Virus record (IMG/VR): IMGVR_UViG_3300028400_000005
Location: 1 to 64,000 of that record
Direction: 5' to 3' (one strand)
Source: a virus
DNA: 64,000 nt
The notes under the pieces were generated by a model, which saw only the letters and a program-made list of their open reading frames with translations, had not been told where the DNA came from and did no database searches. Shown here in pieces: positions 7,712 through 44,682 of the stretch (position 1 is the stretch's first letter; each line of letters starts with the position of its first letter). The translations under genes were made by a program, and so were the position numbers.

Positions 7712-8671
7712 ATGGCTAGAGGCGGTTACCGCGGCGAGGCGTTTCCATGGGGGGCGGTCAAGCCCGAGCGGCGAGCTGAGAAGGTGCGCGCGATGCTCGA
7801 GGCCGGCGACCGGGCCGGCCTGTGGGCCCTGGTCAAGCACCACCTCATGACCTGGGGGCGTGCGGGCGCGGCGACGAGCCCCCACACCCTGCGCACCTAC
7901 CGCACCGGGCTGAACAGCTTCCTCGACTACCTGGCCGAGCTCGGGCTCGAGGGGGAGCTGCTGGCCGAGGCGGTCCTCGATCCGTCGGAGGACCTGGGGG
8001 CTGAGTACCTGCGCCACCTGCAGCGTCACCACGCCCCCGCCACCGTGAACAACCGCCGGGCGGCGGCGCGGGCCTTCTACCGGGCGCTGCAATGGGCCCG
8101 GGCCACGCAGACCAACCCCTTCGACCTGGCCCCGACCGTGCGGGACCCGACGCCGCGCCACGAGAAGCGCCGCCCCTACGAGGACGACGAAATCAAGCGG
8201 TTGACCCGAGAAGCGGACCCGCACGAGCGGGTCATGGTGCTGCTCGGGGCCCAGGGCGGGCTGCGCATCTCGGAGGCGGCGCGGCTTCGCTGGGACGACG
8301 TGGACCTCGGGGCGAAGCGGATCACGATCCGGGACGGCAAGGGAGGGAAGACGGCGAGCGTCCTCATCCCCAAGGGGCTGCGCGCCGCGCTCCGCGCCCT
8401 TCGCAAGGCCGAACCCGAGGGCGAGTACGTGCTGCCCTGGCGTACGCCTGCGAGCATCCGGCGCCGGCTCAAAGCGCTGTGCGACCGGGCCGGCGTACGC
8501 TACAAGGGCTACCACGCCCTGCGGCACTACTGCGGCACCTACATCTACCAGCAGACGGGCGACCTGAACACGGCCGCCCGCCAGCTGCGGCACTCCCAGC
8601 TGCAGACGACCGCGATCTACGCAAAGTGGGCTGAGGAGATGGCGCGCGAGCTCCTGGACGGCTGGGACTAG
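7712..8671 (+). CDS. Tyrosine recombinase (phage integrase)
   Basis: Protein of 319 residues catalysing site-specific integration and excision. The N-terminal core-binding SAM-like domain spans about 30-135 (TSPHTLRTYRTGLNSFLDYL). The catalytic domain spans 150-310 with all active-site residues visible: R185 in GGLRISEA, K213 in GKGGK, H268 and R271 in HALRHYCGT, H294 in LRHSQ, and nucleophile Y303 in TAIYAKW. Length is normal for a simple XerD-like integrase without a long arm-binding domain. It is the only plus-strand gene in the left 34 kb and is closed by its own terminator. The start is ATG 7712, 6 nt from a -10 element. Together with the repressor it shows the phage is temperate. Confidence 0.95.
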   Translation: MARGGYRGEAFPWGAVKPERRAEKVRAMLEAGDRAGLWALVKHHLMTWGRAGAATSPHTLRTYRTGLNSFLDYLAELGLEGELLAEAVLDPSEDLGAEYLRHLQRHHAPATVNNRRAAARAFYRALQWARATQTNPFDLAPTVRDPTPRHEKRRPYEDDEIKRLTREADPHERVMVLLGAQGGLRISEAARLRWDDVDLGAKRITIRDGKGGKTASVLIPKGLRAALRALRKAEPEGEYVLPWRTPASIRRRLKALCDRAGVRYKGYHALRHYCGTYIYQQTGDLNTAARQLRHSQLQTTAIYAKWAEEMARELLDGWD

Positions 8672-13200: not shown

Positions 13201-16200
13201 ATGACCCGCTTGGCCCGGCCTTCGTGCTCGAGGAGCTGGGCTAGCGCGAGGCCGGCGTACGTCTTCCCGAGACCCACGTCGAGGGCCATGATCGAGTTGC
13301 CGGTGTCGAGGGCGTGCCGCACCGCCTCCGTCTGGAAGTCATGCAGCGGCGGACCCTTCCAGTCGGGGATGTCCAGCGCCTCGTTGCTGTACTTGGGCGG
13401 GATGTAGCTGTTGTAGGTGCGGTTGTAGCCCTCTTCGAGCTCTTCGCGGTAGTCGGAGCTGGCCGCCCACGCCTTGAACTGGTCGGCCCACTCCTGCTCC
13501 TGCTTGCGGGCCTCCTCGCGGTACTGCGCCTTGAGCGCGTCCAGCTCGGCGCGGGTCATGGTCCTCGTCTGCTCGGCCGTGAGGCGCCGCACCGGGGTGT
13601 CGAAGTTGAGGTACTTGACGAACTCCTTGACGTGGTCGGGGAGACTGTAGCCCTCGGCGTGCTCCACGATGAAGATGCCGGTGTCCGTACGCCGCACATT
13701 GTACTGGCCGCCCGGGTCCACGACCTCGCCGATGAAGTCGCGCACCACCTCCGGGCGCACGTAGTGGTCGCGGGCCGTGATCTCGACCTCCTCGAGGGGC
13801 TTGCGGGGCAGCTTCTCGCGGAACTTCTTGGCCTGGGCCCGCAGGATCTCGCGTTCGGTGTTCGAGAGGCCCGGGGCCTCGGCGGCCCGCTCCAGCGCCT
13901 CGGAGCGCTCGTACACGTCCCCGACGTAGAACTCGTCGTCGGGAATCCAGCGCCCCGACTCGTCCATGGCGTAGCCGTTCTCGGCCAGCCACTCCATGGC
14001 CTGCGTGGTGCCCCAGCCTTTCCCCGCCAGCACCGAGGCCAAGCGGGTGGGGGTGAGGCGCCGCTGCCGCGCAAGGTGCGCCGCGACGGCGTAGGGGTCG
14101 GTGTAGTCCACCCCCTCGCCGCGCTCGCCCGTGACCGGGTTGAGCAGGTGCTCGGCCACGTCGCCCTTGGGCGTGACGGCGCTGAGCAGGTGGGCGAGGC
14201 TGTGCCGGCGTTTGAGCTCGCCGGCCAAGTGTTGGTGGGGGTTGCCGTACTCCTCCAGGTAGCGCTTCAGGGACTCGACCACCGCCTTACGGCGCGCCTC
14301 GGCGTCGGCCGGGCTGCCGTTGTTGAGCACGTGCACGTACTCGCGCAGCTCGTCGGCGATGCTGACCGCGGCCGCGAGGCGCGGGTCCTCGCCCTGGATC
14401 GTGTGCCAGCGCCCGTTGCGGAAGACCAGGCGGCCGTCCTCGCTGACCGTCCCCTCCTCGACGCGGCCGCGCTCGAGGTTCGAGGCCGCGCTCGTGGCCC
14501 AGTCGCGGGCCGATGCGTACTCGTCCCCGTAGTGGCGCTCCAGCGCCGCCATGTCCGCCGGCTGTTCGTCGGTGGGGGCCTGGGCCAGGCGCTCGAGCAG
14601 CCCGGGCTCGAGCTCGCCCTCGATCTTCTTGTAGCCGTGGTACGTGGTCTCGCCGCTCCACGTCCCGAAGAGGTGGTCGTCGCGCAGGTGCAGCTTGCCG
14701 TCCAGGAAGTCGCGCGCGGCGTCCGTGAGCACGCCCGCCTTCTCCAGGGCCTCCTCGCCGTGGCGCTGCACCAGGCGCAGGAGGGTCATCCCCTCATCGT
14801 CCGGGCGCTTGCGCACCACCAGCACCACCGGGGGCACCCCCGAGTTGGACTCCTTGAAGACGCTGGAGGGGAGCTGGTAGGCCCCCAGGACCTCCGCCCG
14901 GGCCAAGAGGCGCCGGCGGAAGTCGCGGGTCGAGGGGTTCTCGACGGGTCCCGGGTTGATCAGGTGCACGCCCACGCCGCCGTCCTTGAGGCGGTCCAGG
15001 GAGGCGTCAATGAAATACTGCTCGGCCTTGGCGAGCCACGGCTTGCCCTTGCCGATCAGGCTGCCGCGGATGCCGTAGGGCGGGTTGGCGATCACCGCGT
15101 CGTAGGTGTGCTCCTGCCCTTCGCCCTGGTTGTACTCCTCGAAGGACAGGCCGGGGTAGACCTTGTGCCCCCGGGGCTCGTGCAGCAGCTTGCCGATCTT
15201 GCCCGATACCTCGGAGAGCTCGACGCCGGTCACGCGGGTGCCGTCGGGGGCGGTGTGCAGGAAGACGCCGTTGCCCATCGAGGGCTCGAGCGCGGTCTTG
15301 GGCTGGCCGGCCACGCGGTGCAGCAGGGCCCACATGGCGGCCGCCAGCGGCGCCGGGGTGTAGTGGGCGTTCAGGTCGCCCGTCAGGCCGCCCTCGCCGG
15401 TGTAGGCGGCCAGGACCTGGCGCTCCTCCTCGGTGGGCTCGCGCTTCTCGTCTTCCAGGCGCTCCAGCAGCTCCACGGCGCGCGCGTTGGCCTTGGTGCG
15501 CTGGGCAACCGTGGCCTTGGGCAGCAGCGCGAACCCGAACCGGGGAATACGCTTCAGGATCTCGCGCAGGGGGCGCGCGTAGTTGAGTCCGCGGCCTTCG
15601 GCTTCGGCCTGGGGCGGCTCCTCGGCGGCCGGCTCGGCCTCGGCCTCGGGCTCGGTCTCGGTCGGCTTGGCCTCGGGTTCGGGCTCCGGCTCGGCCTGGG
15701 GTTCGGCCGCTCCGGCTTCCGCCTCGGGCGCGGTCGGCTTGGCCTCGGGTTCGGGCTCCGAGGTGGCCTGGGGCTCGGGTTCGGTTTCCTGCCGGGGCGC
15801 GCTCGGGGCGCTTTCGGGTTCCTCGTCCACGCGGTGCCAGCGCCCGCCCTTGAGGCGGTACGTGTGGGCCCCGTCGGCGAAGACGACCGTCTTCTCGGCA
15901 CCCTCCCGCAGGTGCTGATCGGAAGGGTCGGCCGGCAGCTCCGCGGGGGCCGGTCCCGCGGTGTCGGGCACCGACGGCTCCACCTGCGGCGCGTTCTTGC
16001 CCTCCCAGCGCTCGCGCGGCACTTCATGGTAGAAGTGGTCGGTCAGGTTCTGGGCGAAGACCCGGGCGAACTGGGGGTCGCGTCCCCGCAGCTCGTAGCC
16101 GCGGATCGGGTCGTGCGTCGCCGTCTCCTCCAGCTCGAGGGCGCCGTCGGGAGCCACCTTGTACACCAGCTCGCCGTCGAGGTAGATGTCGCTCATTGGG

Positions 16201-34377: not shown

Positions 34378-34812
34378 ATGGAGACAAACGTCAAAGCGTC
34401 GGAAAATAGTCGCACTCCAACTGCGGCGATTCGTGTTACCGGGGTCAGACCCGGCCCCGACCTGCAGATGCGCGTCGGCCCACACGCCGGCTTCACCGCC
34501 ATCGCACGGCGTGACCTGGGGCGCTACTACGCGCTGCTCGACCACGTGCGCGACGGCATGCGTGGGCGCTTCACCGCCGATGAACTCGACGCGCTCGCGG
34601 ACCACCTCACCGCGACGCCCATGTTGGACCTCCCCGAAGCGCTGGCCGTCGTGCCCCACATTCTACTGGAGGCCGCCGAACGCGGCCTGCTCGACGAAGG
34701 CCTAGCCGAGCGGGTGCGGCAACTGACCCACGCGGAGCGCTGGGCGCTCGTGGACGCGGCCGAGGTGGTGTCCTCCGGCACGGCCTCCTGGGCCGATCTA
34801 GGGATGGTCTGA
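34378..34812 (+). CDS. Early protein, paralogue of the gene at 44221-44682
   Basis: Protein of 144 residues starting 9 nt from a -10, first gene of the rightward replication operon. The core IARRDLGRYYALLDHVRDGMRGRFTADELDALADHL, and the later LTHAERWALVDAAE, match the leftward gene at 44221-44682 almost block for block, showing a duplicated phage family. It is helical, without enzyme motifs. A small regulator or replication accessory is plausible, but function is unknown. Confidence 0.75.
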   Translation: METNVKASENSRTPTAAIRVTGVRPGPDLQMRVGPHAGFTAIARRDLGRYYALLDHVRDGMRGRFTADELDALADHLTATPMLDLPEALAVVPHILLEAAERGLLDEGLAERVRQLTHAERWALVDAAEVVSSGTASWADLGMV

Positions 34813-34814
34813 TC

Positions 34815-35822
34815 ATGGGCAGCCTCCACGACGGCCGAATCAAAAACTTCTGGTGGGGACCCAACGCCCTGGTAGACGACGGGCATCTCGAGCGCATGGG
34901 TCCCCACGCCGTTTCGGTGTACGTGGCGCTGCTGCGCTACTCGGACAACGACCGCCGCTCGTGGCCCAAGGTCGAAACCCTGGAGCGCCTGACCGGCATC
35001 TCTCGCGCCCAGGTCTACCGCGCGCTCGCGCGCCTCGAAGAGCTGGGCTACGTATCCCGCGAGCGTGACGGCCGGCGCAACGTCTACCATCTGCTGCAGC
35101 TCCCCACGGCATCCCCCGCCGACCCGCCCGTGAAACAGGTCTCAGGCAGAGACGTTTCCAGCGAAAAGGTCTCAGAGGGAGACCCTTCGGGGGAAAGGGT
35201 CTCAGACAGAGACAAAAAGGGTCTCAGACAGAGACGTGTAAGGTCTCAGACAGAGACGTATGGTGACACCGAGAGCGCGCGTCCTGGACGGGAAAAACTC
35301 CCCCAAAATGCAGGCCGAAGAAAACAAATAGAAAAAGACCTAGGGAAGAAAACAACACAAGAAGAAGAAGAAGAAGAAGCGGCCGCTCACGAAAATCTCA
35401 GAAAGGAACCGCCCCCCTACGCCTCGGTGTTCGCCACCCCGGCCGCGATGAAGGACGCGGTGTTGCATGCGGCGCTGCGCGGTGCCCCCGAGCGCCGCAT
35501 CCGTATGCTGGCGGACCTCGTCGAGGCTGGGGTGTGGGAAAAGTTGCGCGCGCTCGCGCGCGAAAACCGCCGCGGCGCGCGCGCGTGGCACGACTGGCTC
35601 GATCAGCTGTCGCGGCAGCTCGAGGGCCGGCCGGACGGCCTCGAGCGGCTGCGCCAGGCTCTCGAGGCGCTTACCCCGGACATCGAACGCCCCTTTGCGT
35701 GGGTGACGCGGTTCCTGAGCACCGAGGCCCCGACGCCGGCGCCTAAGCGGGCGCCGGCGCGGAACGCAGGCGTAGGCGACGGCGTGGAAGTGGACATGCG
35801 CGGTGTGTACATGGAGGACTGA
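34815..35822 (+). CDS. Replication initiator (lambda O-like) with internal origin
   Basis: Protein of 335 residues. The N-terminal winged-helix domain (about 25-95) reads HLERMGPHAVSVYVALLRYSDNDRRSWPKVETLERLTGISRAQVYRALARLEELGYV. A variable, polar linker (about 108-195) is encoded by the iteron array and an A-rich tract. The C-terminal domain (about 200-335) is helical and probably contacts the helicase loader encoded next. DNA-binding domain first, origin in the gene middle, and the loader gene immediately after (1 nt gap) reproduce the lambda O/P arrangement. Its job would be to bind the iterons, open the A-rich segment and recruit helicase. Confidence 0.8.
   Translation: MGSLHDGRIKNFWWGPNALVDDGHLERMGPHAVSVYVALLRYSDNDRRSWPKVETLERLTGISRAQVYRALARLEELGYVSRERDGRRNVYHLLQLPTASPADPPVKQVSGRDVSSEKVSEGDPSGERVSDRDKKGLRQRRVRSQTETYGDTESARPGREKLPQNAGRRKQIEKDLGKKTTQEEEEEEAAAHENLRKEPPPYASVFATPAAMKDAVLHAALRGAPERRIRMLADLVEAGVWEKLRALARENRRGARAWHDWLDQLSRQLEGRPDGLERLRQALEALTPDIERPFAWVTRFLSTEAPTPAPKRAPARNAGVGDGVEVDMRGVYMED
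35138..35257 (+). repeat. Five origin iterons inside the initiator gene
   Basis: Copies of GGTCTCAGACAGAGAC or close variants start at 35138, 35168, 35198, 35220 and 35242 (spacing 30, 30, 22, 22 bp, i.e. close to whole helical turns). Each copy is itself an inverted repeat (GTCTC..GAGAC), as expected for dimeric winged-helix binding. Confidence 0.88.
35285..35392 (+). other. A-rich tract, putative DNA-unwinding element of the phage origin
   Basis: It runs directly downstream of the iterons, inside a high-GC gene, with long purine/A runs (aaaaactcccccaaaa, gaagaaaacaaatagaaaaa, gaagaagaagaagaagaag). Such strand asymmetry is typical of lambda-type origins. Confidence 0.75.
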
Positions 35823-35823
35823 C

Positions 35824-36615
35824 ATGGGCGACGCCCCGGAGAAGGATCAGGAGAACCCCTTTCTGGCGCTGGTCGAGGAAATCCGCTCGAAGAACCCGCC
35901 GGCGGCGCGGGTCGAGTCCGACCACGAGTGCTTCGACGGGATGGTCGAGGACGACAAGGGCCGCTGGGTGCCGTGCCCGGTGTGCAAGGCGCGGCGCGAC
36001 GAAGCCATGCTGCGCATGCGCCTCCAGTCGTCGGGGATCGCGGAGCGCTACCTCGACGTGGGCTGGGACGACCTCGAGATGCTGCCGCCCTTCCCGCTGG
36101 TGCGAAGCGTGGCCGAGCGCATCGGCGACCTGATCCACGCCGGCGAGTCCGCGGTGTTTACGGGGCCGGTGGGGACGGGCAAGACCCAGGCCGGGCTGCT
36201 CCTGGTGCGGGCTGCGGTGCGCGCCGGGTTCGAGGCGCGGGTCGTCAACGTCGGCTGGCTGGGGGTTGAGGTGCGCTCCACCTGGAACGGCGGTGAGGGC
36301 ATCACGGAAAACGAGGCCGTGCGCCTCATGGCTCAGCCCGACCTGCTGCTGCTCGACGACGTGGGGGCCGGCGAAACCCGCAACGCCGAGCTCGAGCGCC
36401 GCCTCCTCTACCTCGCCCTCGAGGCGCGGAACCAGAACCGGCGCCCGACGATCATCACGACCAACCTCGGGGTTGGGTCAAAATCGGCCTCGCGCGCCAC
36501 ATTGGAGCAGTACCTTGGAGGGCGGATATGGGACCGCCTCAAGCCGCTCCGGGTGGTGGCCTTCAAGCACGGGAAAAACTTCAGGGAGCGGGAGATTAGC
36601 GTATGGGCAAACTGA
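35824..36615 (+). CDS. DnaC/IstB-like AAA+ helicase loader
   Basis: Protein of 263 residues from ATG 35824. It has an N-terminal Cys cluster (C36, C51, C54) that may bind zinc. The AAA+ core shows Walker A GPVGTGKT (114-121), Walker B LLLLDD (174-179), the sensor-1 strand PTIITTN (208-214), and an arginine region near ERRLLYLALEARNQNRR. It belongs to the DnaC/DnaI group that loads the replicative helicase. As no DnaB-like helicase was found in the window, the host helicase is probably used. The end overlaps the TPR gene by 13 nt. Confidence 0.88.
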   Translation: MGDAPEKDQENPFLALVEEIRSKNPPAARVESDHECFDGMVEDDKGRWVPCPVCKARRDEAMLRMRLQSSGIAERYLDVGWDDLEMLPPFPLVRSVAERIGDLIHAGESAVFTGPVGTGKTQAGLLLVRAAVRAGFEARVVNVGWLGVEVRSTWNGGEGITENEAVRLMAQPDLLLLDDVGAGETRNAELERRLLYLALEARNQNRRPTIITTNLGVGSKSASRATLEQYLGGRIWDRLKPLRVVAFKHGKNFREREISVWAN

Positions 36616-38033
36616 GCTATGACGACCTGGTCGATCCGGCCCGCTGGGACGTGGTGGGCTACGAGATCGGCTTGGATGACCTGGGCGAGTTTGAACCCGA
36701 CGACATCGTGCGCAGCCGTCGCGCTCAGCTGCTGATGCGTCAGGAACGTTATGAAGAAGCGCTCCTCGAGCTCGACCGCGTAGAGGGACCTCCGGGATCG
36801 GGGTTGCGCCGGCTGGCGCGGCTGGGCCTTGGGCTCTACGAGCGGGTGCTGCAATCCGAACCCACGCCCGCGGAAACCCTGAACCCCATCGAGCTCGAGG
36901 AGCAGTTCTACTTCGCCTTTGCCCGGGCGGGTGCGGCCAGCCAGCTCGGCAAGCTGGACCTGGCGCTGCAGCACAACGCCGTGGCGGAGTTCATCGCCCG
37001 CACCCTGCGCATGGAGCGCCGTCTCCACGTCGTTCATGCGGACATCCTGCGCATTCGCAACCTGATGGGCGACCCCCAGCCCGAGGAAATGGCCGGACTC
37101 TACGCGATCATGGGGCGCTGGAACCGGCGCCTGAGCCTGTGGGGGCGGCGCACCCTCGTGGAGATGCACCTGGCGCGCGGGGACTACACCAGGGCGCACC
37201 GTGACGCTCGGGGCGATTCGGCCCTCGAGGCGTTCACCGGCATGCTGGCCTGCGACGGAACCGCGCGCCCCAGCAACGGCGATCACGGGGCCATCGCCAA
37301 CATCGCGCAAAGCGTTCTGGGCGGCCACTACCTGCCCGATGACGTTGCCTCGCAGCCGTACAGCGACTACGCCCGGGTGATCCGCGCCTACGGGCTGCTG
37401 CGCCGGGGGCATCCGACGGCCGCCATGCGCCACCTGGGACCCAAGCCCCCGGGCTTCCCCGACCAGCGCGTCTACTGGGGCGGGGTCGCGCTGCTGGCGC
37501 TGGCGCACGCCGGCAGCAGCGGACTTCCCCCGTTCGACCCCCTGTCCATCGCGGACGTAGTGCACGAGGGCGTGGCGAGGATGATCTCCACCGACGGAGT
37601 GGTGTGCGTGATGCGGCGGTACATGCCCGACGCCCTGGCCGCCCTGGCCGTGCATCCCGAGACCCACCCGCACCTGGCCGGCGGGCTGGCCGAAGTACCC
37701 CTGCTGGTCGGTGGGTGGGTGGAATACCGCGGCGACCGCGTCAAGGTCCCCCCCACCCTTGGCGAGGCTGCGATCTTGCGCGCGCTGGGCGTGTCCAACG
37801 GCCGCCTGCCTACGGTCCACGCCGCCCAGGAGTCACGCTACCGGTCGTACCTTGGGCGGATGGGGCTGTCCCCGGACGAAGTCGTGAACGTGGGCGTGCT
37901 CTACCGCCTAGCGCGCACCATGGAGGGCATCGCCAACGGCGACAACGTGCGAAGCGCCCGCGCGTGGCGGCGCGTCGCCGAAGAGCTGGCCTCCAAGGCC
38001 CCGGTCTTGCAGTCCTACGACACCGGGCACTAA
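36603..38033 (+). CDS. TPR-repeat protein, candidate peptide receptor (RRNPP/arbitrium-like)
   Basis: Protein of 476 residues, nearly all helical. TPR-like pairs are visible: RRAQLLMRQERYEEALLELDRV (39-60), YFAFARAGAASQLGKLDLALQHNAVAEFIARTL (about 103-135), GRRTLVEMHLARGDYTRAHRDA (about 181-202) and YARVIRAYGLLRRGHPTAAMRHL. The C-terminal 110 residues (PTLGEAAILRALGVSNG..ESRYRSYLGRMGLSPDEVVNVGVLYRLARTM) could form a helix-turn-helix. No N-terminal XRE domain is present, so it is closer to Rap than to AimR in layout. It is followed after 9 nt by a gene for a secreted peptide. It is inferred to be an intracellular receptor that senses that peptide and adjusts the lysis-lysogeny choice. Alternative: an unrelated TPR adaptor. 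Confidence 0.7.
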   Translation: MGKLSYDDLVDPARWDVVGYEIGLDDLGEFEPDDIVRSRRAQLLMRQERYEEALLELDRVEGPPGSGLRRLARLGLGLYERVLQSEPTPAETLNPIELEEQFYFAFARAGAASQLGKLDLALQHNAVAEFIARTLRMERRLHVVHADILRIRNLMGDPQPEEMAGLYAIMGRWNRRLSLWGRRTLVEMHLARGDYTRAHRDARGDSALEAFTGMLACDGTARPSNGDHGAIANIAQSVLGGHYLPDDVASQPYSDYARVIRAYGLLRRGHPTAAMRHLGPKPPGFPDQRVYWGGVALLALAHAGSSGLPPFDPLSIADVVHEGVARMISTDGVVCVMRRYMPDALAALAVHPETHPHLAGGLAEVPLLVGGWVEYRGDRVKVPPTLGEAAILRALGVSNGRLPTVHAAQESRYRSYLGRMGLSPDEVVNVGVLYRLARTMEGIANGDNVRSARAWRRVAEELASKAPVLQSYDTGH

Positions 38034-38042
38034 GGTGCAGGC

Positions 38043-38141
38043 ATGAAAAAGTACAGAAAGTACCTCCCCGCGCTTTTGGTCCTCGGAATCCTGCTTTGGG
38101 CCGCCATCGCCAACGCTGACCCCTGTCCGGGTTGCGTGTAG
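38043..38141 (+). CDS. 32-residue pre-peptide with signal sequence; predicted mature DPCPGCV
   Basis: This small ORF has a good ribosome site (AAGGTG, 6 nt spacer) 9 nt after the TPR-gene stop. It begins with positively charged KKYRKY, then a hydrophobic core (LPALLVLGILLWAAIA), then A-N-A as a signal-peptidase I site, leaving the heptapeptide DPCPGCV at the C-terminus. There is no lipobox cysteine at the cleavage point. Basic n-region, h-region, cleavage and a 7-residue tail are exactly what Phr/AimP-type pheromone precursors show. The two cysteines could form a disulphide loop. Alternatives: a small secreted toxin or lysis peptide. Confidence 0.65.
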   Translation: MKKYRKYLPALLVLGILLWAAIANADPCPGCV

Positions 38142-38160
38142 CGCCTCTGGGTGTTAGTCG

Positions 38161-38212
38161 AGTGTTACCAAAAGCCACCCATTCCCGGTAAGGGGCGCGG
38201 TAAAATCCGAAC
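38161..38212 (+). promoter_or_regulatory. Leaderless promoter candidate, weak -35
   Basis: -10 TAAAAT (38201-38206) lies 6 nt before ATG 38213. GTTACC (38164-38169) and GGTAA (38187-38191) form an inverted repeat around the -35 region, where a regulator could bind. Confidence 0.5.
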
Positions 38213-38404
38213 ATGGCATTGACTATGAAAACACCCACTCAGCAGGAGGCCCGAAACCGGCTCATCAAGGCCACGGAGGGCGACCTGGACAGCGAAATCG
38301 CCGCGTTTTCGATCATCGCCAAAGCCAACGAAATCGGCCAGCTGCTCCAGCAGCTGGCCCCCGAGGCGCGCGAGACCGCGCGCGAGCTTCTAAGAGCCTT
38401 GTAG
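38213..38404 (+). CDS. Small helical protein of unknown function
   Basis: Protein of 63 residues, helical (QEARNRLIKATEGDLDSEIAAFSIIAKANEIGQLLQQL). It lies downstream of the candidate peptide pair with its own leaderless start. Its 3' end overlaps the convergent RHH gene by 15 nt, so expression of one may interfere with the other. Confidence 0.65.
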   Translation: MALTMKTPTQQEARNRLIKATEGDLDSEIAAFSIIAKANEIGQLLQQLAPEARETARELLRAL

Positions 38405-38815
38405 CGTCTTCTGGCCCTTCGGGGCCGCACGCAAGGCCCGATCCAGGGCCGTGAGGATCACGCTGTTCTGCGTGATCTTTTCTTTGCGGGACTGGTTCAG
38501 CCGCTCCACCGTGTCGTGGAGGACCCGGACCAGCTCCACGGGCAGCCGTTGGCTGCGCACCGGGTCGTACGGACGCGGGTTACGCCAGTACCGGGGCAGC
38601 GCGTCCGGGCGGCGCCGCGCCTCCCGCAGGAAGGCGGCGAGCGCGCGCTCAACGTAGCCCTGGATCGTGAGCCCTTCGGCCATGGCCGCGATCTTCAGCT
38701 CCTGGTACATGTCGTCCGGCATTTTGTAGGACACGATCCGCCGCAACTGCTGTTTCGGGCCGACCGGCTTCGCGCTGTGCTCCATCAGCCCCTCGTACTG
38801 GTGTTTGTTGGGCAT
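38390..38815 (-). CDS. Double ribbon-helix-helix protein, ParA partner
   Basis: Protein of 141 residues with two RHH-like units: RRIVSYKMPDDMYQELKIAAMAEGLTIQGYVERALAAFL (about 25-63) and SQRLPVELVRVLHDTVERLNQSRKEKITQNSVILTALDRAL (about 88-130). It is the third gene of the repressor-ParA operon, 11 nt after ParA, with AGGAGGAGCC as ribosome site. RHH proteins next to ParA act as centromere-binding factors (ParG/Omega type), so it probably completes a partition module. It could also be a plain transcription regulator. Confidence 0.75.
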   Translation of the reverse strand: MPNKHQYEGLMEHSAKPVGPKQQLRRIVSYKMPDDMYQELKIAAMAEGLTIQGYVERALAAFLREARRRPDALPRYWRNPRPYDPVRSQRLPVELVRVLHDTVERLNQSRKEKITQNSVILTALDRALRAAPKGQKTLQGS

Positions 38816-38826
38816 GGCTCCTCCTG

Positions 38827-39624
38827 TTAGCGGCTGGGCACCAGCTCGGCCCGTTCCGCGACCCAGTCCCCCAGCGCCATGTAGTCAATCGCGCCCGGGG
38901 ACCGGGGCTTGTACTCGAAGATGGTCAGCCCGCGCTCCGGCGCTTCGGCGAGGTGGACGTTGCGCCGGATGTGACCGGCGTAGGTGGGCCCGTAGGCCTC
39001 CTGCAGGTCGGGCACGAGGTTGCGGGACAGACGTTCGCGTCGGTCGATCATCGTGGCCAGCACGCCCATCAGCGCCGGCGCGTAACCGAGGCGGTCGCGC
39101 ATGGCGCGCAGGCGCGTTCGCAGCCCCTCCACCCCGGCCCGGGTGGCCGCACCGGGGGCCACGGGCACGATGACGGCGTCGGCCGCGTAGAGGGCGAGCA
39201 GGCTGGCCAGGTTGACGGTGGGGCCCACGTCTATGATCACGAGCTGGTAGCGGTCGCTGACCTCCTTAAGCCGCTCGGCCAGGATCATGTGCCGGTCTTC
39301 GCGGCCGGCGATCTCGAGCTCGGCTTGGGCGATGCGGGGGTTGTTGGGGATGAGGTCGAGCCCGTCGCGCACGTTCAGGGTGATGAGCTCGTCGGCGGGG
39401 CGGTAGGTCGGGTCGAGCGGGTCCGAAAACACCAGCATCTCGTACATCCCCGCGCGGTCCTCCCCCTCCGTGGTGAACCCCAGGAACATGCCCGCCTGCC
39501 CCTGCGAGTCCATGTCCACGAGCAGCACCTTGCCTACGCGGTCGGCCAGGTAGGCCGCAAGGTTGACCGCGGTGGTGGTCTTCCCCACCCCGCCCTTTTC
39601 AGCAGCGATAGCCAGGACCATCAT
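38827..39624 (-). CDS. parA: ParA-type partition ATPase
   Basis: Protein of 265 residues. The deviant Walker A motif KGGVGKTT is at 9-16, with the signature Lys; A' (VLLVDMDSQGQ) is near 33 and Walker B (LVIIDVGPT) near 128. It is in the Soj/ParA family that segregates low-copy plasmids and phage-plasmids. Translation is coupled to the upstream repressor (overlap 39621-39624), and the RHH gene follows. No parS array was identified with certainty. Presence with an integrase suggests that the prophage may also exist as an extrachromosomal element. Confidence 0.92.
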   Translation of the reverse strand: MMVLAIAAEKGGVGKTTTAVNLAAYLADRVGKVLLVDMDSQGQAGMFLGFTTEGEDRAGMYEMLVFSDPLDPTYRPADELITLNVRDGLDLIPNNPRIAQAELEIAGREDRHMILAERLKEVSDRYQLVIIDVGPTVNLASLLALYAADAVIVPVAPGAATRAGVEGLRTRLRAMRDRLGYAPALMGVLATMIDRRERLSRNLVPDLQEAYGPTYAGHIRRNVHLAEAPERGLTIFEYKPRSPGAIDYMALGDWVAERAELVPSR

Positions 39625-40262
39625 GACACCCGCTTAGGCCGCACCCACGTCACCACACCAATCACCTTGTCGCTCGGCTTGGGCGGCGGGGCCTCTTCGT
39701 CGTCGTACACGTAGCCGCCCTTGGTGGCCCACACGGCCTCGAGGCCGCTACCCAGCCGCTCGAGCACCACGAGGTCGCCCTCTTCGATCCGCTCGGTCGC
39801 CCGCACCCCCACCGGCTCGTTGAGCGGCAGACAGGCGATCCTGCCCGACGTGGGAACGAAGAGCAGGTCGCAGGGCAGCGCCGGCTCCTCGCGCCGCGCG
39901 GCGGGGCCCTGGGCGGACTCCCCCTCGAGGTAGACGGGCACCGTCACGGCGACCTTGGCCGCCGGTTCGCCGTTGGCGGGCGCCACCACGGCGAGCCCGG
40001 TCTCCTCCACGAACCCCTGGTAGTCCCCGTCCCACAGGAGGGCGACCAGGGTACGCAGCCGGGCCGGCGAGAGGGTGCGCACGGCTACGTCGGGCTGCGT
40101 GATCAGCGTATGCAGCGTCGGGCGCGACACGCGCTCGTAGATACCGGGTTCGCGCTCGGCCAGGTCCTGGCTAAGCGCGTCCACGTCCCGCAGGCTCAGC
40201 TTGCGGGCCTTCATCCGCTGGTGTATCGCGTCCGAAAGAGACTTGGTTTTGACTGCTCCCAC
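39621..40262 (-). CDS. CI-like repressor: XRE-type HTH plus S24/LexA-like C-terminal domain
   Basis: Protein of 213 residues from GTG 40262 (GGAG upstream). The N-terminal HTH spans about 8-60 (LSDAIHQRMKARKLSLRDVDALS, RPTLHTLITQPD). The C-terminal half resembles a peptidase-S24 fold (CDLLFVPTSGRIACLPLNEPVGV, RIEEGDLVVLERLGSG), although a clear Ser-Lys dyad was not placed. It is divergent from a Cro-like gene across a 141-bp control region, the classic immunity layout. It is the prime candidate for binding the TGTCC-N8-GGACA operators. It leads the operon with ParA and the RHH protein, so partition is expressed in the lysogen. Confidence 0.8.
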   Translation of the reverse strand: MGAVKTKSLSDAIHQRMKARKLSLRDVDALSQDLAEREPGIYERVSRPTLHTLITQPDVAVRTLSPARLRTLVALLWDGDYQGFVEETGLAVVAPANGEPAAKVAVTVPVYLEGESAQGPAARREEPALPCDLLFVPTSGRIACLPLNEPVGVRATERIEEGDLVVLERLGSGLEAVWATKGGYVYDDEEAPPPKPSDKVIGVVTWVRPKRVS

Positions 40263-40403
40263 CTAACTCCACCCCCGTAAATGCGTGTGCCTCTTCCCTC
40301 CGTATAGTGCTTATTGTAGTCCAGAATATTGGATAACGCAAATGGACAGACAGCACGGCTGGCCAGCTTGCCCCCTTGTCCGTCTGTCTGTAAAATGAGA
40401 CAC
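40263..40403. promoter_or_regulatory. Immunity control region: divergent promoters and operators
   Basis: Leftward (repressor): TTGCGT (40341-40336), 17 nt, TACAAT (40318-40313), with a degenerate operator AGTCC-N8-GGATA at 40318-40335. Rightward (Cro-like): TTGCCC (40368-40373), 17 nt, TAAAAT (40391-40396), inside the perfect operator TGTCT-N8-AGACA (40385-40402), and 7 nt to ATG 40404 (leaderless). CAGACAG (40347-40353) and CTGTCTG (40384-40390) are further inverted partners. Confidence 0.8.
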
Positions 40404-40607
40404 ATGGAGACGATCCGCCTCAGCGAAATCCACACGCGCCTGAGCGAGCTGTCCGGCGAGCAGATCCTCGAGCTCGCTCGCCGAACCGGCATCGGCCGCT
40501 CGACCCTGTACCAGTACCGCGCCAGCCCGGAGGCGCTGAAGCGGGCTCGAGGCTCCACCCTGCTGGCCATCCAGAGGGCCCTGGATGAGGTGCGCGATGC
40601 TGCCTAG
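40404..40607 (+). CDS. Cro-like small HTH protein
   Basis: Protein of 67 residues from ATG 40404; longer open frames would start upstream of the promoter. It is one HTH: LSELSGEQILELARRTGIGRSTLYQYRASPEALKRARGSTLLAIQRALDE, with the recognition helix around RSTLYQYR. It is divergent from the repressor and starts from the leaderless operator-promoter. It is expected to repress the repressor promoter during lytic growth. It overlaps the next gene by 11 nt. Confidence 0.8.
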   Translation: METIRLSEIHTRLSELSGEQILELARRTGIGRSTLYQYRASPEALKRARGSTLLAIQRALDEVRDAA

Positions 40608-43489: not shown

Positions 43490-44224
43490 ATGGGTGACCG
43501 TTCCGACGACTACATCCAGCTCCCCAACGGCGGGCGGGCGCTGCGCTGCAAGGCCACCCTCAAGAACGGCAAGCGCTGCTCCAACCCGGCCCGCAAGGGC
43601 TTCGAGGTCTGCTGGAAGCACGGCGCCGGATCGGGCAAGCGCGAAAAGGAGGGCACGCGTAAGCCCCCGGGCCGGCCGCCCGTGCATGGCCTCTACTCCA
43701 AGCACGGGCTCACCTCGATCCGGGAGCTGCGGGATCAGCTGCTCGAGCTCGGGGGAGAGCTCGACAACACCGACGCGGCGCTGGCCACCCTCAAGGCCAC
43801 CCTCGAGTGGCTGCTCAGCCTCGCGGACAACCAGAAGGACAAGGCGGAGAAGTTCGAGAAGCTGGCCGATACGCTCGCCGCGGCGGCCTCGGAGGCGAGG
43901 TCGTACGGCGACGTGGAAACGGCCGTCGAGCTGGGTCGGGACGTGCGCGCGGCCCTGCGGCTCGCCACCGAGCTGTCGTCCTGGACGGACCGCCTCGTCG
44001 AGGCCGCCCTCAAGGTGATCAACGCGGTCAAGCAGCGCGCCGAAACCCGGGCCAAGCTGGCCGAAACCAGGGCGCTCGAGCAGTTCGTCAAGCTGGCCGC
44101 GGGCGTCCGCGACATCGTTTGGGACCTGATGGACGAGGAAACCCTGAACGTCTTCGAGGACCGCTTGCGCCGGGAGCTGCTGGCCCCGAAGCGCCTGCAG
44201 CTCCCGGAACGCACGCAGGACTAG
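43490..44224 (+). CDS. Putative small terminase subunit
   Basis: Protein of 244 residues from ATG 43490, leaderless-type start. The N-terminal RCKATLKNGKRCSNPARKGFEVCWKHG zinc-like C-C-C-H box is followed by GRPPVHGLYSKHG, the G-R-P-x-x-H-G-L-Y-S motif common in small terminase-like DNA-binding proteins. The rest is a long helical oligomerisation region (about 75-210). Small terminases recognise pac/cos DNA and feed the large subunit encoded 2.2 kb downstream on the same strand. The call rests on motif and context. The gene ends convergent with the next, overlapping by 4 nt. Confidence 0.65.
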   Translation: MGDRSDDYIQLPNGGRALRCKATLKNGKRCSNPARKGFEVCWKHGAGSGKREKEGTRKPPGRPPVHGLYSKHGLTSIRELRDQLLELGGELDNTDAALATLKATLEWLLSLADNQKDKAEKFEKLADTLAAAASEARSYGDVETAVELGRDVRAALRLATELSSWTDRLVEAALKVINAVKQRAETRAKLAETRALEQFVKLAAGVRDIVWDLMDEETLNVFEDRLRRELLAPKRLQLPERTQD

Positions 44225-44682
44225 CTCGAGCGCAGACCCAAACCGACCCAGCCCTCCTCGCCGCGTTGGTCACGCGGGAGCTCCAGGTACTGGCCGATCG
44301 CGTCCACCAGCGCGTAGCGCTCCGCCAGGCTCAGCTCCCGGACCCGCCGCAGCAGGCCCTCGCAGTCGTCCAGTCCGGCCTGCTCGCACAGGCGCTCGTG
44401 CTGCTCGGCCTCCTCGACCGTCGCCGGCACTAGGTAGATCAGCTCGGGAGCCTCCACGGACGCCATCGAGCTGAGGGCGTACGCCAGCGCCTCGAGCTCA
44501 GCAACGGAGAAGCGGTCGCGCAACCCGCGCATGGCGCGCTCGAGCATGGAGTAGTAGCGCGCGAGGTCGCGGCGCGCGATCTCAGTCGGGGTGGCGGAGC
44601 GCGCCCGCTGGACCAGGTCGGCCCCCGGACGCACGTCCGGGCTCAGCGACGTGTTAACCCGCAAGGCGTTTTTCATGGGCAT
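44221..44682 (-). CDS. Paralogue of the early protein at 34378-34812
   Basis: Protein of 153 residues from ATG 44682 (GGAGGTG ribosome site). Block similarity to the early protein: DVRPGADLVQRAR..IARRDLARYYSMLERAMRGLRDRFSVAELEALAYAL..LSLAERYALVDAI. It is transcribed leftward from a promoter that shares an operator with the gene at 44785. Function unknown; duplication and separate control suggest a regulatory or dosage role. Confidence 0.75.
   Translation of the reverse strand: MPMKNALRVNTSLSPDVRPGADLVQRARSATPTEIARRDLARYYSMLERAMRGLRDRFSVAELEALAYALSSMASVEAPELIYLVPATVEEAEQHERLCEQAGLDDCEGLLRRVRELSLAERYALVDAIGQYLELPRDQRGEEGWVGLGLRSS

Follow-up and report, generated by a model that had tools for sequence, protein, structure and literature searches.

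Two adjacent genes in the 64-kb window, the whole stretch of viral DNA analysed here, probably constitute a peptide-signalling pair of temperate, P1-like Deinococcota phages, which would be analogous to the RRNPP and arbitrium systems without detectable homology to them. The first, on the plus strand at 36603–38033, encodes a candidate cytoplasmic receptor or regulator of 476 aa, and the second, a 32-codon ORF at 38043–38141 (+), follows after a 9-nt gap and encodes an export-signal-like precursor (MKKYRKYLPALLVLGILLWAAIANADPCPGCV). Both ORFs are present in the order, spacing and size given by the original prediction, and the pair is real, conserved and, as far as a non-exhaustive literature search could tell, unreported. 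For lysis-lysogeny as its specific output, we put the chances at about even.

The candidate receptor gene and its family

Four receptor homologues were detected. One resides in a sister phage, IMGVR_UViG_3300026531_000001 (L003:6786-8222), and is 49% identical to the window protein, and the other three, on the Deinococcus plasmids of KNUC1210 (L019), QL22 (L020) and D. aquaticus (pDATS02, L021), share 24–27% identity with it. All three plasmid records contain a tape measure protein gene, joined in D. aquaticus by a terminase gene, and they carry ParA/ParB genes (KNUC1210 and QL22) or an integrase gene (KNUC1210 and D. aquaticus); the records are therefore taken to be phage-plasmids. Two equal-scoring receptor genes lie 94.4 kb apart in the QL22 record (NZ_CP097156.1; 188,830 bases), half its length, so that this record probably represents a 94.4-kb phage-plasmid in dimeric form or assembled in duplicate.

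In all five family members, the receptor gene is followed directly, on the same strand, by a signal-like ORF ending in CxxC, and the pair has been kept although the surrounding genes changed; this pairing is not a product of chance. Homologues lacking an adjacent signal-peptide ORF had been named as grounds for giving up the idea, and all four homologues possess one. Searches with the receptor returned nothing except the sister phage from IMG/VR, no match from GTDB contigs, INPHARED phages or the other IMG/VR portal relatives (some of them fragments), and only the window itself from 379 genomes of the phylum to which the assembly with the window belongs. The window lies in contig C386 (79,030 bases), which belongs to a 5.4-Mb assembly of similar G+C content (about 70%). 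As no receptor homologue occurs in the 378 other genomes of that phylum, the bin may hold a stray Thermaceae phage, or the host may differ from the bin label.

The 476-aa receptor matched no curated family in Pfam, NCBIfam and PHROG scans with cut-offs applied, and no solved structure in a sequence search of the PDB; it is a candidate founder of an orphan family. It is predicted to be helical throughout, and no HTH, N-terminal or other, was recognised in it. The proposal of a TPR-type protein has weak support: the Foldseek matches of an AlphaFold model, itself of low confidence (pLDDT 43, with an input alignment of two sequences), are mostly proteins of the TPR class, among them RapH, NprR and the Rap protein of phi105, but the Pfam TPR_1/TPR_2 matches (E 0.04–0.09) fall below the cut-off, as do the weak Pfam TPR matches seen in three of the five family members, and the TPR motif score is not significant. 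On these matches, a TPR fold is plausible.

Such likenesses could mean that the receptor truly belongs to RRNPP, as a divergent relative of AimR/Rap transferred from Bacillota, which is a sub-case that overlaps the explanation preferred here and differs from it in ancestry. Gene order, the 476-aa size, the degenerate TPR-like signals and the local matches of the poor model to Rap and NprR speak for this descent, which nevertheless appears rather unlikely, given that hhalign of the receptor family against AimR was empty (prob 0.1, from a shallow profile), that Pfam, NCBIfam and PDB sequence searches revealed no homology to a known RRNPP receptor, and that all members found reside on Deinococcota-type replicons. 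The earlier label of arbitrium/Rap-Phr-like therefore holds for gene layout and likely function, and 'RRNPP-like' does not denote membership, as no sequence relation to AimR or Rap was found; because of this lack of AimR homology, the pair cannot be filed under arbitrium or Rap-Phr.

The precursor and its conserved tail

An export signal in 38043–38141, which the original prediction had proposed, was called by a simple hydropathy and charge rule. The predicted signal sequence (MKKYRKYLPALLVLGILLWAAIANA; 38043–38117, +) ends in an A-N-A cleavage site and has diverged in sequence among the relatives, and the CxxC of the predicted mature peptide, DPCPGCV (38118–38138, +), is preserved in every relative, with DPC..C present in four of the five members. 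The C-termini read ADPCPGCV in the window, ADPCPGCY in the sister phage, LDPCLGC in KNUC1210, QDPCPWCRP in QL22 and VGPCGGC in D. aquaticus. The last seven residues had been expected to vary, and here the prediction needs correcting, as their variation is constrained: the nearest pair shows strong conservation of DPCPGC, and every member retains CxxC. The precursors of the relatives are MKRVAATVLLLLALGLMLSHVLADPCPGCY (sister phage), MRFLVKGILIGLVSVAFASASA...VVLDPCLGC (KNUC1210), MKPFLKALVLFGALLSAVAAAA...IVQDPCPWCRP (QL22, read from GTG) and MKKFIVPVVLMLSALLAAPATA...DGVGPCGGC (D. aquaticus). The D. aquaticus ORF carries the annotation 'hypothetical protein', and the PLSDB gene table lists neither the KNUC1210 nor the QL22 ORF. 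In the Deinococcus precursors the linker is longer, and a second cut would therefore be needed to yield their mature peptide.

A scan of 285,833 bases of family replicons, covering both strands, lists 2,651 ORFs of 20–100 aa, of which 24 have CxxC within the last seven residues and 27 are signal-like. The two traits are combined in five of these small ORFs, which are exactly the five receptor partners, in a family that numbers five members and whose few replicons also supplied the DNA-level controls. A control scan of about 220 kb of other sequence gave one distinct chance match with both traits, and a search of IMG/VR for the DNA pattern ADPCPGC-x-stop returned the sister phage and chance matches only.

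Between the window and the sister phage, all seven codons of ADPCPGC have changed (GCT/GCG GAC/GAT CCC/CCG TGT/TGC CCG/CCT GGT/GGC TGC/TGT), every change is synonymous and all seven residues are kept, while the leader has diverged. When the receptor genes of the same two phages are compared, seven of seven residues are kept in only 0.2% of 7-codon stretches. Because all residues are kept despite the codon changes and the leader has diverged, the tail is the selected part of the precursor and, judged by this substitution pattern, is under purifying selection, which fits a secreted signal peptide and not a membrane toxin or a lysis protein.

A toxin has to be weighed all the same, as the small ORF could belong to a plasmid-addiction (Hok/Fst-like) or lysis unit, in which a membrane or secreted toxin is controlled or neutralised by the helical protein. 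Toxins of the Hok type are small and may contain Cys, and a hydrophobic ORF of 32 codons would be in keeping with such a unit on a phage that has ParA and partition genes. We regard this as improbable, since the conserved part is the extracytoplasmic tail and not the hydrophobic core, in the Deinococcus forms the CxxC comes after a leader that can be cleaved off and a long polar/Pro-Val linker, and a probable separate leaderless promoter, described below, contrasts with a toxin that is translationally coupled or RNA-controlled.

Genes of the superinfection-exclusion or envelope type are common beside immunity regions. The same point has been made for another Thermus phage group (PMC11437467). 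The small ORF might accordingly be an exported factor of this kind that is unrelated to the adjoining regulator and has a metal- or thiol-binding tail, CxxC being capable of metal binding or redox activity. That the two genes stay together in five of five members despite changed surroundings, and that so short a tail leaves no room for a structural domain, render this very improbable.

Promoter-like boxes, a direct repeat and the phage setting

The gene of the putative signal precursor is preceded by a candidate promoter, TTGCAG - 18 nt - TAAGGT (38007–38036, +), which ends in a TANNNT box 6 nt before the ATG, and the sister phage has the same layout (TTGCGT - 18 - TAGGGT - 6 - ATG). The TANNNT box stands 6 nt before the precursor start in every family member except QL22, where it precedes the GTG by 7 nt; TANNNT occupies such a position (6–7 nt ahead of ATG) by chance at 0.4–1.8% of ATGs in the sequences examined. 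TANNNT beside an ORF is an established leaderless promoter (-10) of Deinococcus-Thermus (PMC12340547). The box thus makes it probable that the precursor has a promoter of its own, located inside or just behind the receptor gene, from which it would be transcribed leaderless.

Past the precursor stop lies a direct repeat with an 11-bp period, TGTTA-N6-TGTTA (38152–38167, +), a candidate operator that is also present in the sister phage (starting at L003:8330) and in QL22 (L020:6359). In all three loci carrying the repeat, it is found 6–22 nt past the precursor stop, and it occurs once each in the window, the sister phage stretches examined and 50 kb of QL22, where 0.004–0.016 occurrences each are expected. 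The stretches searched of KNUC1210, D. aquaticus, Lalka27b and phiMa contained none; a GTGAT repeat of 11-bp period in D. aquaticus is a different one and is not significant. As 11-bp direct repeats would suit an OmpR/SARP-like domain, a winged helix of this type (beta-hairpin then helices) at the C-terminus of the receptor was considered, but it is conjecture, as the C-terminal model matched nothing.

Next to the repeat is a non-coding block common to the window and the sister phage, ACCAAAAGC(C)ACCCATT (38167–38184, +), followed by TAAAAT (38201–38206, +), a putative leaderless -10 that stands 6 nt before the ATG of a 63-aa gene, likewise in the sister phage. The 63-aa protein (38213–38404, +), which is conserved in the sister phage, is the candidate output gene and occupies the position of aimX. 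From the start of the second TGTTA to the next TANNNT, the distance is 38 nt in the window, 48 nt in the sister phage and 27 nt in QL22 (nearest TANNNT), and these steps of about one helical turn would suit an activator or repressor site. In KNUC1210, the pair is followed immediately by a gene for a large MalT/SARP-like ATPase-TPR regulator (L019:6435-9416) with its own TAGCAT-N6-ATG leaderless box, which is a possible output gene of that replicon. RNA folding of the intergenic stretch revealed no structure common to the loci; a strong hairpin (L003:8361-8390; stem of about 12 bp, z -2.4) separates the repeat from the 63-aa gene in the sister phage only and has no counterpart in the window.

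By its replication, ParA, repressor/Cro, recombinase and portal genes, the contig is a temperate phage, which is probably maintained as a plasmid in a Thermaceae-type host. The portal protein is 73–74% identical to that of the Thermus phages Lalka and the receptor homologues occur in Deinococcus phage-plasmids, in agreement with the Deinococcota-type phage initially supposed. Upstream of the receptor gene, in the same transcription unit, are a replication initiation gene (O-like/HTH_36; 34815–35822, +) and the gene of a DnaC-like helicase loader (35803–36615, +), which overlaps the receptor start. On the other side of the pair, convergent with it, lie genes for a ribbon-helix-helix protein (38390–38815, −) and a ParA-like partition ATPase (38827–39624, −), the latter a phage-plasmid trait. 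Beyond them, a repressor-like gene (39621–40262, −; 68% identical in the sister phage, with no Pfam or PHROG match) corresponds to the repressor placed about 1.5 kb from the pair, and a small Cro-like HTH gene (40329–40607, +) diverges from it. A tyrosine recombinase gene (7748–8665, +) is related to those of Lalka27b and two Deinococcus phage-plasmids. In the window, QL22 and D. aquaticus, the pair and the repressor-side genes of the immunity region are transcribed towards each other. A conserved repressor-like protein with a weak N-terminal HTH, beside a small divergent HTH gene, is encoded in each of the three Deinococcus phage-plasmids, at L020:6629-7087 (−), at L021:2461-3033 (−) and at 14446-15033 of KNUC1210. 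Two paralogues of unknown function (42% identity, E 3e-25), at 34378–34812 (+), the first gene of the rep operon, and at 44221–44682 (−), flank the replication and immunity region.

The placement of the pair in an early operon holds for the receptor gene, which is in the rep-dnaC unit, but not for the precursor and the gene after it, which apparently have leaderless promoters of their own. In the window and the sister phage, the receptor gene is the last large gene of this unit and is next to ParA, an arrangement that would also suit control of prophage-plasmid replication or copy number in place of lysis-lysogeny. This reading shares the peptide and the receptor with the preferred one and differs from it in output. 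It seems rather doubtful in view of the Deinococcus phage-plasmids, where the receptor gene is not beside annotated rep genes and where two have the repressor/HTH pair adjacent.

Proposed signalling and its relation to known systems

In the preferred reading, a peptide-signalling pair, the signal sequence would export the precursor, which would be cleaved after A-N-A in the window, while the Deinococcus versions would require a further protease. The product would be a short peptide ending in Pro-Cys-x-x-Cys, probably disulphide-closed outside the cytoplasm; a CxxC disulphide that forms outside the cell and is reduced inside is put forward as a suggestion only. The peptide would then re-enter the cytoplasm, presumably via an oligopeptide permease and across a diderm envelope, and bind the 476-aa helical receptor. 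Alone or with a partner, the receptor might act at TGTTA-N6-TGTTA to set the promoter of the next small gene, and the small output protein, or convergent transcription, might in turn act on the operon of repressor and partition genes (immunity). In this way, the level of peptide supplied by other cells, whether infected or lysogenic, would bias the choice between lysogeny and lytic growth, or the copy control of the prophage-plasmid. Cultured Deinococcus strains carry the pair and the predicted peptides are 6–8 residues long, which makes the proposal directly testable.

The Lalka phages of Thermus thermophilus resemble the window phage in the portal protein, a related XerD-like recombinase, a LexA-like repressor and the plasmid-prophage trait; LexA-like switches have been described for them, and a P1-like plasmid prophage has been suggested for Lalka27b (PMC11437467). 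They differ in the pair itself, as Lalka27b has no receptor homologue, nor has phiMa. RRNPP_detector, which has been applied to Firmicutes and virus genomes, demands both a match to a TPR HMM and a Shine-Dalgarno site (PMC10075063); by these criteria, pairs of the present class would probably escape, with their leaderless genes and receptors below TPR profiles. A literature search, which was not exhaustive, turned up no account of an RRNPP or arbitrium system in either Deinococcus or Thermus.

With arbitrium (AimR-AimP-aimX of SPbeta-group Bacillus phages), the pair shares a temperate phage as carrier and a receptor gene followed by a short exported precursor with a C-terminal signal, an order seen also in SPBc2 yopK-yopL. 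Behind the precursor stand the repeat, the -10 box and the conserved 63-aa gene, which may correspond to the operator, regulated promoter and small output gene of arbitrium, and lysogeny regulators are nearby (ParA, recombinase and repressor/Cro in the window, with homologues in phage-plasmids). The differences are that the window receptor has no sequence similarity to AimR, that AimP hexapeptides are Cys-free whereas the tail here is DPCxxC, and that the setting is a diderm Deinococcota host, with leaderless precursor genes, no recognised N-terminal HTH and a TGTTA-N6-TGTTA repeat. Rap-Phr and the other RRNPP(A) systems of Bacillota similarly have adjacent receptor and propeptide genes, a receptor of RRNPP size, a Sec-type leader and a C-terminal signal, but here the receptor is below TPR cut-offs and unrelated in sequence, the peptide contains Cys and the phylum is Deinococcota. 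Tentatively, and with less confidence than in signalling as such, the pair may represent a separate, independently evolved peptide family of Deinococcota phages, with a CxxC redox-coded signal and an orphan helical receptor reading 11-bp-spaced direct repeats in a diderm host. In the literature surveyed, cytoplasmic peptide-receptor communication of the RRNPP and arbitrium kind is described only from Bacillota and their mobile elements, and with a Deinococcota phage-plasmid pair, peptide communication between phages would reach a further phylum, a diderm envelope and Cys-containing peptides.
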